DNA of 64,000 nucleotides from Algoriphagus sp. (GTDB lineage Bacteria; Bacteroidota; Bacteroidia; Cytophagales; Cyclobacteriaceae), in the NCBI RefSeq assembly GCF_029254265.1, contig NZ_JAQWXX010000110.1, forward strand, positions 55,599 to 119,598, given 5' to 3'. The notes below the pieces were generated by a model. The model had not been told where the DNA came from. It saw only the letters and a list, made by a program, of their open reading frames with translations, and did no database searches. Shown here in pieces: positions 2,788 to 52,610 of the stretch. Position 1 is the first letter of the stretch. Each line of letters starts with the position of its first letter. The position numbers and the translations under genes are program-made.

Positions 2788-5700
2788 AAAAAGAACTTTT
2801 AGCTTTTTCGGCTTTCCTGCTTGTATTGGCTTGTCAGGAAAAAAAGGAGCCTTCCATCCCACCTCTATTTGAACAAATCAAAGTAGAGCGGTCTGGAGTA
2901 GACTTTCGAAACGACCTTATTTTTGATGAATCATTCAATATCTTCACTTACCGTAATTATTACAATGGTGGCGGAGTAGCACTTGGTGACGTGAATAATG
3001 ATGGCTTGCTGGATATTTATTTCACTGCCAATCTTGGACCTAATCAGCTTTACCTCAATCAAGGTGATTTTAAATTTGAAAATGTAACTCAAAAAGCAGG
3101 GGTTGCGGGAAGCCGTGCATGGAGTACCGGAGTGGCCATGGCAGATGTCAACGGCGATTCACTTTTGGATATTTACGTCTGCAATTCTGGAGATATCTCA
3201 GGAGACAATAAGCAAAATGAGCTGTTCATCAATAATGGGGATGGGACTTTTACCGAACAAGCGGAGGCTTACGGTTTGGCTGATCAAGGATTTTCCACCC
3301 ATGCGGTTTTCTTTGACTATGATAAGGACGGCGACTTGGATGTCTATTTGCTAAACAACAGCTATCAGGCCATTGGTACCTTCAATAAAATGCAAAATGA
3401 GCGCCCCAAACGAGATGAAGTGGGCGGTGATAAACTTTTTAGAAATGATGGAAATCGATTTGTAGATGTCAGTGAAGAAGCTGGTATTTACGGCTCGATC
3501 ATCGGCTTTGGACTTGGAATCACCATCGGCGATGTGAATCAGGATACCTGGCCGGACATTTTCATTTCGAATGATTTCTTTGAGAAGGATTACCTCTACA
3601 TCAATAATCAGGACGGAACCTTTACCGAATCACTAGAATCTGCGATGCAATCTATTTCAGCAGCTTCAATGGGAGCAGATATCGCCGATATCAATGGAGA
3701 TGGATTGCTGGATATTTTCGTTACGGACATGCTTCCTGACTCCCCTACTCGATTGAAGCAAGTCACCACTTTTGAAAACTGGGATAAATTTCAATTCAAT
3801 AAAACCCACGGATATCATTACCAATTCTCCAGAAATATGCTTCATATCAACAATGGTGATGGCACATTCAGCGAAATGGGTAGACTTGCAAATGTAGAAG
3901 CAACAGACTGGAGCTGGGGAGCGCTACTTTTTGACATGGATAATGATGGCAAGCGGGATCTCTTCGTGGCAAATGGAATCTACCAAGACATCACGGATTT
4001 GGATTACCTGAATTTTATCGATGATGACGAGACCAAGGTGAAAATCATTTCCGAATCCGGAGTAAATTATAAGGCATTAATCGACCCTATTCCAATCAAT
4101 CCAATCCCAAATTTTGCCTATCGTAATCTCGGAGAATTGAAATTTGAGAATATGGCTGAGCAATGGGGCCTTGGCGAAGCGATTCATTCCAATGGAGCCG
4201 CTTATGGTGATTTGGACAATGATGGGACTTTGGATTTGGTGGTCAGTAATGTGAATCGCCCTGCTTCAATTTTCAAAAATATGGGGCGGACGCTTTCGCC
4301 TGAAAATCATTTCATCCAACTTCAACTTGAAGGTAAAGGAGCAAATACGGCCGGAATTGGAGCACAGATCCAAGTGATAGCCGGAGGAGAATTATTCTAT
4401 ACCGAACAAATTCCAAATCGGGGATTCCAATCATCTGTAGACCCCAAATTGACAATAGGTTTGGGAAACAAATCTCAGATCGAGAAAATCAAAGTGCTTT
4501 GGCCAGACGGGAAATTGACACTTTTGGAAAACATTCCAGCCGATCAACTTCTTACATTAAAATGGTCTGACGCAGCTGATATTCCTGCTGGAGAAACCTT
4601 CTTTGCGACTAAAAAGACACCAAGATTCAAGCAGTCCGAATCGGAAGAATTAGACTTTTTGCATCAAGAGAATCCAATGGTTGATTTTGATCGAGATCGT
4701 CTGACCTACCATATGTATTCTACAGAAGGTCCAGCTTTTGCAAAAGCTGATGTAAATGGAGATGGAATTGAAGATCTTTATTTTGGCGGAGCCAAAGGAT
4801 TTGAAGGAAAACTCTATCTCGGAAATTCAACTGGAAGCTATGTGCTCTCTGAGCAAGTTGCTTTTGTTTCAGATGCAAACTCCGAAGATACTGACGCCCT
4901 ATTTTTTGATGCAAACCTAGATGGTTATTCAGACCTCTATGTCTGCTCCGGCGGAAATGAATTCCCATTAGCGTCAACAGAACTATCCGATCGGCTTTAC
5001 TTGAATGACGGAAAAGGAAATTTCACCAAGAGCTTTGCTGGGTTTGAAACGAATACTGAAAGTAGTGCTGTGGTCTTACCAATTGACCTCAATGAGGACG
5101 GGGCAATAGATCTGATCGTAGGCACACGGCTTGTACCCTATGTGTATGGAGCGCCTGCTTCCAGCAACATTTGGATCAATGATGGAAAAGGGAATTTCTC
5201 CAACCAAACCGCTGCTCTTGCTCCTGCATTCAATGAATTGGGAATGATAACAGATGGGAAAGTCACGGATTGGGATGGAGATGGAAAAGCGGATTTGATA
5301 TTTGTGGGTGACTGGACCGCACCGATTTTCTTCAGGAATACCGGCGGAAAACTGGATAAAATCGAAATGCCTGAGCTGTCAAATCTCAAAGGTTGGTACC
5401 GGACTTTGGAAGTTGCCGATCTGGATAGAAATGGTCTTCCTGATTTGATTTTGGGAAATAACGGATTTAATTCCAGATTCAAAGCATCGGTAGATACACC
5501 TGTCAAAATGTACTTGAATGACTTCGATCAAAACGGATCCATCGAGCATCTTTTTGTCAGAGAAGTTGGAGGACAGCAGATTCCTTATGTTTTAAAACAT
5601 GAACTGGAAAAGCAGATTCCGATCATTAAGAAGCGGTATATCAAATATGAGACTTATAATAATCAGACGTTTTCGGAGATTTTTCCTCCCGAAGTGATCT

Positions 5701-48921: not shown

Positions 48922-49023
48922 TAACTTAATATAGATTTAACTAAATTATTTTTGAAACCATTTTGAAATTTCATTTTTCGTTATTATAATTGATTAGTTT
49001 TAATCTCAATTCCAATCAACAAT

Positions 49024-50000
49024 ATGAAACCAAAAATTAAAAAAGAAAGGCACCGGATAAAATTGTCCTGCCTTCTTAGTGAACTAGGGGGGGGGGCTTA
49101 GGTAATTTTACCTTTTTTAATGCCCTCGTAATTTTCACATTGGTCCTGTCTGGATGTAGTCAGGAAGTAATCACAAGCGATCAAGTCGCAGAAGGGAATC
49201 CACTTTTAGGAAATAAAGGCTTACTCCAAGTCTCTTGGGAATCAGTGATTTCCACTGACTATCAGGGCGATTTAGGAGCACTGAATGAAAACTCCCTATC
49301 GGCACTTAATCCCTTTGAAGAAAAGCAGCTGGTAGAATTTATCCTTCATGAGACTGGAGAAGCTCAACTTAACATTGAGCATTTGTCCAAAAATGAAGGC
49401 ATCAAAATTCCTCATGAGGATCTGTCTGATGATCGGGCTCCTGTCAAAAAGACCGTAATCTATGGAGGAGAGATTTCTTGGTATGACGGATCTGGTGCCC
49501 TATTGGGATCACAACCCATGCAGCGTTTGGATTACTCGGCTTGGATTACAGAAATCAAGAAAATCAAGGAGACGAATTCCAAAGAAGAGATCAACCGGGC
49601 TCTCAGAAATTTTCAATCTCAGTTTTTCAAGGCTAATCTGGAAAACTTCATTGAGCAAATAAAGAAAAGTAACCCAATTGTAAGAGAAATAGAAGAATTT
49701 CAGATTTTGGAGGAAAATGAAACCTATGTCACAATACGAGTGGATTTGGCACAGTTTGAACCCGGACAGACGGGAATCAATGTGATGTTGATTGACAAGA
49801 ATAAAAATCGAATGGTCGCCAATAGAATTTATACTGAAGGAAATGAAATTCTCCAAACTACCTACTATGGCTATGCCAAAGGAGAGACTGGGGCACTAGA
49901 TGCCATCCGGGTAGAAGAACCCCTTTTTCTCGAGGAGAAAATTGAACTGACAAAGGTGACTTTGACCAAAATCTCTGACTTGAACATCTCCTTAAATTGA
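49024..50000 (+). pseudogene. lipoprotein gene interrupted by a 10-G homopolymer (phase-variable candidate; OFF as written)
   Basis: ATG 49024 gives MKPKIKKERHRIKLSCLLSELGGGA* with stop right after the G tract; with 8 or 11 G the frame joins ..LGNFTFFNALVIFTLVLSGCSQEV (lipobox LSGC) and the 49140-50000 ORF. Confidence 0.75.
49087..49096 (+). repeat. poly-G tract (G10)
   Basis: cta GGGGGGGGGG ctta read directly. Confidence 0.95.
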
Positions 50001-50007
50001 TTTCCTC

Positions 50008-51330
50008 ATGAAAAAATATTCTATATTTTCTTTTTGCTTTGCCTACTTCATTTCAATGGGAGTATTGGCACAAAATAAAAACACTTATTGGGTTCATGGA
50101 CTCAATGATACAACGACAGCTTGGCAGCATTATGCTACTATATTTGAAGCTGAGCGTAGAATGAACAGCTCTCGACCTTTCTATCCTTCCAGTTCTGGAA
50201 TAGCTACTTCTACAAGCACTTTGTCTGGTTCCATTCCTGTAAATTCACAAAATATAGGAATTGGCCACAGTATGGGAGGGGTTGTATTGAGGAATCTAGA
50301 CCGTATCAGTCCTTCTTCATCCAGAAAAATTAATGCATTGATTACTGTTGGCACTCCGAACTCAGGTGCGGGCATCGCTAATTCCTTTGAGGATAACAGT
50401 CTATACTTAGCGAGTCAAAAGGCCTGTAATGATCTGGGCGCAGGTCCACTTACCGAGCTTTTTGGGATTCCTTGGAACGTTGCGACCCTAAGTTTCGCCT
50501 CAGCACTTGGAGCTAATTTGACTACCAATAAAATCTGCGAGCTATTTATCACAAATGACTTATTGAGTCAATACGCTGGCTCTGCACAGGCAAGAGCGGA
50601 TTTGAAAATGGGAAGTCCTTTTCTATCTCAAATTGATAACTACAGTTCCTCCATACCTAGACTTAGTATGATTGCTCAGGAAAATAGCCCGGTACATTGG
50701 AGATTACTAAGTAGTACGATAACCCGAAATAGCACTAATCCAAGTGATCAACTACTACCAGACGCGATAACTGGCGTGGAAGTAATTTACAATGGCTTTT
50801 TTGTAGCCAGAACTGCTGGCACAATAGTAAATGCCATTTTAGGGTTTATAAATCCGGTATTGTTTGTACAGGCAGCAATTAACGCAAACAAGGCAGTGCA
50901 GTGGAAAAAGGGAGTCGACTGGCTCAATGACAGTGAGACTATCTGGAATAGACTTACCAAGTCCAGTAGATTGGAACTTGAAACCTATTGGGTATGGACT
51001 TGGATCCCCTGTGAGACTATCCCGGGTAAGCAACTGCTTATCGATGATGTGGGTAGAGACCGGGATGAGTCCTGTGGAGAGTGGGGATTTGTAGAGCGTA
51101 CGCGGCAGGTGATGGTACACTATCCCTCCGATGGATTTATCCCCAGCTATAGTCAGGATATAGCCTCCCTACCCGCCTCCAACCGCTACTTTATCCAGGG
51201 TGCCAATCATATCGAAGTGCTCAATATGTCGAACAGCAAGCTAAATAGGCAGCCAAATGATGGGACAAAAGCCGAATTCAACAATGTTTTTGACTTTCGA
51301 AATGACATCTTCAGAACGGCTCGAAAGTGA
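50008..51330 (+). CDS. secreted alpha/beta-hydrolase (lipase/PGAP1-like)
   Basis: Signal peptide ..SMGVLAQ; YWVHGLNDTTTAW; nucleophile elbow IGHSMGGVVLRNL; GTPNSGAGIANS. Confidence 0.85.
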   Translation: MKKYSIFSFCFAYFISMGVLAQNKNTYWVHGLNDTTTAWQHYATIFEAERRMNSSRPFYPSSSGIATSTSTLSGSIPVNSQNIGIGHSMGGVVLRNLDRISPSSSRKINALITVGTPNSGAGIANSFEDNSLYLASQKACNDLGAGPLTELFGIPWNVATLSFASALGANLTTNKICELFITNDLLSQYAGSAQARADLKMGSPFLSQIDNYSSSIPRLSMIAQENSPVHWRLLSSTITRNSTNPSDQLLPDAITGVEVIYNGFFVARTAGTIVNAILGFINPVLFVQAAINANKAVQWKKGVDWLNDSETIWNRLTKSSRLELETYWVWTWIPCETIPGKQLLIDDVGRDRDESCGEWGFVERTRQVMVHYPSDGFIPSYSQDIASLPASNRYFIQGANHIEVLNMSNSKLNRQPNDGTKAEFNNVFDFRNDIFRTARK

Positions 51331-52610
51331 TGAAACATTTTAGCCTAGGAATTATTTGCTTGGCTTCTACTTTAGTCAGCTCCTGTTTCTTATGGGATAA
51401 TGACGAGCCCAAGCTTAAAACCAATGAGGAAGGGGAAGTAATTTCCCTTCCTTACCTCTGGAAAAGAAGTGTACAGTTGGGTGAACCAATTACAAATGGA
51501 TTTACTCATTCTCAGATTAAGTTTAACGGGAATATCGTTTTACCAATGACCAAAGGTCCAACGGGTAGGCTTTTAGTCATGATAGACCCAAATGATGGGG
51601 AAATTTTATGGGAATGGGATGATCGATTTGTGCAAGCTACTGAAGAGATCCTAATTGGCCAATACCCTCAATTTGATAATCTTATTTTTTTCCCGGCAGG
51701 AAGTCGATTGTATTGTGTCAATCTGCAGAATGGGGAAACCCAATGGAAAAAGCAATTAGATCGCTCATTTCTACCAAATGTATATGGCAAAGATGAAAAC
51801 TTCTATTTCTTCGGGAGATCTGATGCATTTCCTGATTCGGTAGATCAGTCTATCATTTTCAAAGGAAATATAGTCACCGGAGAGCTAGAAGAACACCTAA
51901 TCCCAGACTTTACGATGGACTATTTCTTTCCTGGCAATCGGATCGGGGATGTGACAGCAGCACTTCCGGCAGTGGTGGATGGAAAAGAGCATCTGGCGGT
52001 CGTCTGGCAGGAGCCTTTCTTTGAGTTTTTTTGGCAGTCCTACTTGGGACTCTACGATCAGACGACTCGTCAATGGATCTATAAAAAGACCATCATCAAT
52101 CCGGAGAAAAGCTTCAATGGGGTACTGCTTAATCCACCTGTGATTTACAAGGATAGGTTATACATGGCAGTGGGATTTGAGCTGGCCTGCCATGACCTCC
52201 GGACGGGTCAGCAGTACTGGCGAAAGAAGTTTGATGGAGAGATCTTTTTCTCCAATTTCTTGATCGAGGAGGATATGGTAATTATTAACAATGAGGATCA
52301 ATACGTCTATGCGCTGGACCCAATGACCGGCAATCAGCTCTGGAAGACCAGAGGCTCAGGCACGAGCAGTAAAATGAGCTACCTAAATGGAGTCGTTTAT
52401 TTCAACGGAGGAGCAAGCGGTAAGCTCCATGCGATAGATATCCGGGAGGGAAAGACCGTATGGAAGATCGATCCCAAACTTATAGGAGAATTTCCTGATG
52501 AAATATTTTGGAAAACGGCAATCCATATACTCCCAGGAGAAAACGGAAAGAAGGGCAAAGTCATTTCCCTGACAGGTAATAATGCCTATTGCTTTGAAGC
52601 ATATAGATAA
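51327..52610 (+). CDS. PQQ-like beta-propeller repeat lipoprotein
   Basis: Lipobox LVSSCFLW; DPNDGEILWEWDD, NLQNGETQWKKQLD, DLRTGQQYWRKKFDG, DPMTGNQLWKTRG, DIREGKTVWKID repeats. Confidence 0.88.
   Translation: MMKHFSLGIICLASTLVSSCFLWDNDEPKLKTNEEGEVISLPYLWKRSVQLGEPITNGFTHSQIKFNGNIVLPMTKGPTGRLLVMIDPNDGEILWEWDDRFVQATEEILIGQYPQFDNLIFFPAGSRLYCVNLQNGETQWKKQLDRSFLPNVYGKDENFYFFGRSDAFPDSVDQSIIFKGNIVTGELEEHLIPDFTMDYFFPGNRIGDVTAALPAVVDGKEHLAVVWQEPFFEFFWQSYLGLYDQTTRQWIYKKTIINPEKSFNGVLLNPPVIYKDRLYMAVGFELACHDLRTGQQYWRKKFDGEIFFSNFLIEEDMVIINNEDQYVYALDPMTGNQLWKTRGSGTSSKMSYLNGVVYFNGGASGKLHAIDIREGKTVWKIDPKLIGEFPDEIFWKTAIHILPGENGKKGKVISLTGNNAYCFEAYR

Follow-up and report, generated by a model that had tools for sequence, protein, structure and literature searches.

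A G10 tract in the signal-peptide region of an Algoriphagus lipoprotein gene: a candidate slipped-strand switch in the OFF state

The presence of a run of ten G residues where the reading frame of a lipoprotein gene is split raises the question of whether this gene is a contingency locus, switched by slippage of the repeat, or whether its broken frame has another origin. The window that we analysed is a stretch of 64,000 nucleotides (G000:C73:55599-119598) from a 4.75-Mb Algoriphagus genome in 134 contigs, which we compared with a set of 76 Algoriphagus genomes (G-numbers designate genomes, L-numbers loci). Repeat statistics across the genome come from pattern searches, and features of lipoboxes and signal peptides were called by eye and with regular expressions. 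The relevant features of the window are the following.

48962..48992, + strand: possible Bacteroidota-type promoter, weak; TTTG (48962-48965), 19 nt, TATAATTG (48985-48992), found by eye, with one mismatch
49024..49101, + strand: 5' segment of the split gene, from the ATG to the stop TAG 49099-49101 with the tract inside it, by frame reading
49087..49096, + strand: G10 tract, the proposed slipped-strand switch, from an exact read of the window letters; the orthologue's version is G9-C-G, 11 nt
49097..50000, + strand: lipoprotein body with hydrophobic core, lipobox LSGC (Cys 49155-49157) and mature protein, by frame and homology
50008..51330, + strand: secreted alpha/beta hydrolase, lipase-like, GHSMGG (PF07819, slightly below the cut-off), 7 nt past the lipoprotein stop
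51327..52610, + strand: PQQ/BamB-type propeller lipoprotein, third gene of a conserved trio, overlapping the hydrolase gene

The two frames meet at the tract as the preliminary description had claimed. The frame of ATG 49024 has a strongly basic n-region beginning MKPKIKKERHRIK and runs for 25 codons (MKPKIKKERHRIKLSCLLSELGGGA*), with G10 between codons 21 and 25, before it ends at the TAG right after the tract. TGA 49080-49082 bounds the lipoprotein frame on its upstream side; the frame then reads TRGGGLGNFTFFNALVIFTLVLSGC... and continues uninterrupted over 286 codons. Our frame reading agrees that it holds no ATG or GTG between that TGA and the lipobox: the first ATG, GTG or TTG, and the sole listed start, is TTG 49140, which would indeed lose the signal peptide, leaving MVLSGC, too short for export. 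The positive n-region that this frame lacks comes from the ATG 49024 segment. Frame arithmetic likewise bears out that the two frames become one at G8 or G11, giving a basic n-region, a hydrophobic core and a lipobox with its Cys, as in the orthologue. G10 is a non-triplet tandem repeat in the 5' coding region, as in contingency loci built on simple sequence repeats (SSRs), and gain or loss of bases in it shifts the body in or out of frame with the start, as shown by frame arithmetic and by the in-frame, 11-nt orthologue. A regex scan upstream for the Bacteroidota promoter consensus (TTTG / TAnnTTTG) gave no clean match.

The gene belongs to a module that extends beyond the genus. The order lipoprotein-hydrolase-propeller recurs in a different family (f11) of the same taxonomic order, at L180-L183 and L185, where the first genes have a plain ATG signal peptide, with about 26-33 residues to the Cys, and are tract-free; the L181 copy carries frame breaks of its own. 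An hhalign comparison of the window protein with a profile built from four of these first-gene proteins gives E 7e-10 over 230 columns; the lipoprotein has zero matches in Pfam, NCBIfam and PDB. The homology and the shared gene order together indicate that the window gene encodes a genuine lipoprotein belonging to an old envelope module, and that the G tract in its signal peptide is a lineage-specific addition. Orthologues with no G tract and a different start, named in the preliminary description as evidence against a switch, were found only as these remote homologues of another family, for which the lack of a lineage-specific tract is normal. Two repeats near the operon in that family (C10 in L181, G8 in L183) were considered as signal-peptide tracts and rejected, both being located upstream of the gene. 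Matches within the genus at E > 0.01 (L167-L176) were judged to be chance; none of the eight that were read showed an obvious lipoprotein.

Comparison of the tract in relatives rests on a single close orthologue. Among the 76 Algoriphagus genomes, the gene was found in one other, G033 (MAG CPBay_Spr15G08_9), which is 98-99% identical here and where the tract is G9-C-G, one base longer than G10, and the ATG segment, conserved in L009/L116, is fused in frame to the lipoprotein (ON-like). The tract is thus seen in two genomes only, as G10 and as G9CG, and the interrupted form may be a stable ON form instead of a phase variant; clear variation of tract length appears in other lipoprotein families of the genus, described below. 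Window and orthologue (L009) are 96-99% identical over approximately 48.5-50.75 kb and mostly 82-90% farther upstream, a jump that suggests a recent exchange of the segment. The codon changes between them comprise 8 synonymous and 5 nonsynonymous ones (P = 0.006 against an assumed 25% synonymous). The MAG copy has an additional one-base insertion, breaking the frame, near window position 49642, which may be an error or decay (MAG coverage 4.8). A divergent second copy of the propeller lipoprotein is also present in G033.

Long G/C runs are rare in the genome of the window: 9 have a length of at least 8, 4 of at least 9, and the window G10 is the only one of at least 10 in 4.75 Mb. The run by itself is not improbable, since dinucleotide shuffling of the 64-kb window yields G8 freely (3 matches versus 1.8 expected). 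Its position is more telling. Three of the four runs of at least 9 lie at the 5' ends of lipoprotein genes, all out of frame, and an unrelated gene has the remaining one at its 3' end. Random positions pass this out-of-frame lipoprotein 5'-end test in 1.2% of cases, which gives P about 6e-6, or 4e-4 if tandem paralogues are counted once; the test was drafted after the loci had been seen, so that these values are a guide. None of the other five G8 runs of the genome is at a lipoprotein start. The other two of the three are C9 tracts in tandem lipoprotein genes of contig C66 (L011:2660-2760 and 5090-5190), with the layout ATGAAAAACA[A]TTT[TC]G-C9-AATTAC..., both out of frame with their own ATG. 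At C8 or C11 these genes would encode MKN.FAPPNYKKLA.FGLALIFGFSMLISSC.

The same design recurs in other lipoproteins of the genus. We examined 60 loci around G/C runs of at least 10 in relatives, 51 of these runs being from the same genus; 4 of the 51 are at lipoprotein 5' ends (P = 0.003) and most are elsewhere. The C66 lipoprotein family, which has a weak SprT-like C-terminus, is present in 34 of the 76 genomes, and in many of its members a C6-C16 tract follows the ATG by a few codons. Near-identical flanks occur with different phases (L140 C10 ON versus L155 C9 OFF; C7 ON versus C8 OFF at L147), and tandem copies at L148 have C9/C10/C9. Remote members have other repeats at the same 5' site: AACCA (L143, L146, L162, L163, L166, L266-L269), AC (L160) or an 11-bp repeat (L158, L159), so that unit lengths in the family are 1, 2, 5 or 11, all indivisible by 3. 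Pattern searches revealed two more groups of lipoproteins, in which the poly-G coincides with the lipobox. In one (MKIERKKIKPTFLVIITILLVGGGCQEV...), the G033 copy (L247) is in frame and that of G017 (L217) is one base longer; in the other (MKNKANILKVALFISMTWGG.LSC...), G8 is in frame (L248, L249) and a G9 relative in G054 is out of frame (L234). Raw pattern counts exceed those of reversed-pattern controls approximately twofold (89 versus 46 and 78 versus 37, summed), with overlapping matches within long runs tallied repeatedly.

The phases of the C66 family are not random. Counted without regard to shared ancestry, 19 of the 26 members with poly-C are in one and the same phase, +1 from the ATG, a bias that simple slippage does not predict, and 0 of 9 AACCA members, with 2-11 units, are in frame with the ATG, both wrong phases being represented. 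The +1-phase members include tracts that are interrupted or only C6, too short or interrupted to slip, followed by full-length bodies. Selection for a default OFF state would explain the AACCA members, and +1 recoding on CCC-C would explain the phase shared by the poly-C members. A TTG just 5' of the tract was rejected as a universal start of the poly-C family, being absent, by eye, in 9 of the 19 members of +1 phase. This puzzle has no direct bearing on the window gene, where the shift needed is the opposite one and the orthologue is in frame.

Three further observations concern long tracts in these genomes. In two genomes, related lipoprotein genes have a tract (L068 C10, L098 C12) between an upstream sequence bearing a near-palindrome (ataccctatacagggtat) and the ATG; a transcriptional repeat switch is possible there. 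Three secreted paralogues of G061, a genome of the same taxonomic order (L106, L107, L110), have G10 or G11 in their signal peptides, all out of frame with the ATG. In G026 and G002, some contig ends coincide with long poly-G tracts or fall a few bases from them (L077, L079, L082), as would be expected if tract length were mixed or reads failed there.

The tract, the split frames, the in-frame orthologue, the recurrence across the genus and the operon together point to a translational slipped-strand contingency locus in a lipoprotein signal peptide, and the window gene is probably such a locus with an OFF allele. This is the reading first put forward in the preliminary description; the in-frame orthologue and the frame-changing tracts in unrelated lipoproteins of the genus support it rather than prove it. 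Replication slippage to 3n+2 residues (G8, G11) would place the basic n-region in one frame with the lipobox and the hydrophobic core before it, and the protein would be exported. At G10, translation would end after 25 codons. The OFF state would then leave approximately 900 nt of untranslated mRNA before the hydrolase gene, and a polar effect on the operon, with lower expression of hydrolase and propeller, is plausible. We infer that OFF would mean no protein, that slippage could reach a useful rate in this strain, and that the switch may serve as bet-hedging for the envelope module. Because mutS1 is intact in this genome, a mononucleotide tract may be less prone to slippage here than in Campylobacter or Helicobacter, which lack MutS.

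A single slip or mutation, for example from the in-frame 11-nt G9CG, could also have left a fixed null allele, a lineage-specific pseudogene that no longer switches reversibly to any consequence. The restriction of the gene to two genomes, the presence of MutS and the second one-base frame break in the MAG copy, as in a decaying gene, are consistent with this. We nevertheless consider it unlikely, given that the window frame is otherwise unbroken for 286 codons, that the changes relative to G033 are mostly synonymous, and that unrelated lipoprotein genes with intact bodies have an equal design. An error of sequencing or assembly, hiding a true gene in frame at G8 or G11, would fit a draft in 134 contigs, homopolymers being error-prone on some platforms; this is very unlikely, as the tract is deep within a 119.6-kb contig and this genome has two more tracts out of frame.

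Polymerases and ribosomes are prone to slip on homopolymers, so that transcriptional slippage or ribosomal frameshifting might yield the protein with the DNA unchanged. Such slippage at A/T runs is discussed in PMC3711429. The excess of +1 phases in the C66 family, with full-length bodies behind interrupted or C6 tracts, fits recoding of this kind. The window gene, however, would need a shift in the other direction, and in its orthologue the product is encoded without any shift; the AACCA members occur in both wrong phases and some members are in frame as they stand (L247, L248, L140, L152), which makes recoding quite unlikely here. Finally, the tract could be 5' untranslated, with translation starting at TTG 49140, the sole listed in-frame start, or at another internal codon. 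The remainder before the Cys would be too short for export and the distant homologues begin at an ATG 26-33 residues upstream of it, and we regard such a start as extremely improbable.

If the contingency-locus reading is right, a design known from other bacteria is new for Algoriphagus as far as the open-access literature shows: we found there no report of phase variation in the genus, by SSRs or otherwise, only incidental co-mention, and no paper treating homopolymeric tracts and phase variation in Bacteroidota jointly. A broader and rather doubtful conjecture is that Algoriphagus has an undescribed phasome, in which unrelated lipoprotein families carry G/C, AC, AACCA and 11-bp repeats in their signal peptides and are mostly OFF, and in which the +1 phase of the C66 family, the most widespread of them, may reflect programmed +1 frameshifting on CCC-C, so that phase variation and recoding would be combined. 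SSR contingency loci have been studied chiefly in host-adapted pathogens, and the phase variation that we found reported for Bacteroidota is chiefly DNA inversion. If repeats in signal peptides are a recurrent switch design in an environmental genus, slipped-strand switching would extend to this phylum. Such a genus would offer a simple set of loci for asking why surface hedging exists in free-living bacteria, with phages or grazers as conceivable reasons. It would also warn that annotation pipelines mis-start such genes, as at TTG 49140 here, or pseudogenise them.

Among known systems, the closest in design are the poly-G/C SSR contingency loci of Campylobacter, Helicobacter and Neisseria (PhasomeIt, PMC6321876; H. 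canadensis, PMC2823697). They share with the window gene a G/C homopolymer of non-triplet unit that lies in the 5' part of the coding sequence of a gene for a surface protein and breaks its frame at certain lengths, and the occurrence of several loci per genome. Unlike them, the present locus is from a free-living member of the Bacteroidota with an intact mutS1 and few tracts (4 runs of at least 9), and its switching is a proposal. Mycoplasmas also switch lipoproteins on and off: p78 of M. fermentans, named in PMC3711429, by a homopolymer within the gene, and the Vpma lipoproteins of M. agalactiae by site-specific recombination (PMC2268961). Their proteins and phylum are unrelated to ours, and the p78 tract is poly-A whereas the tract here is poly-G. 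Within the Bacteroidota, Bacteroides fragilis varies its cell surface through invertible capsule loci (PMC3090145; reviewed in PMC11868660), and the 2025 review mentions phase variation in Bacteroides that works by invertases and invertible loci. The window gene would share with these loci phase variation of the cell surface in this phylum, and differ in mechanism: recombinases invert promoter DNA in B. fragilis, whereas slippage of a repeat within the coding region is proposed here.
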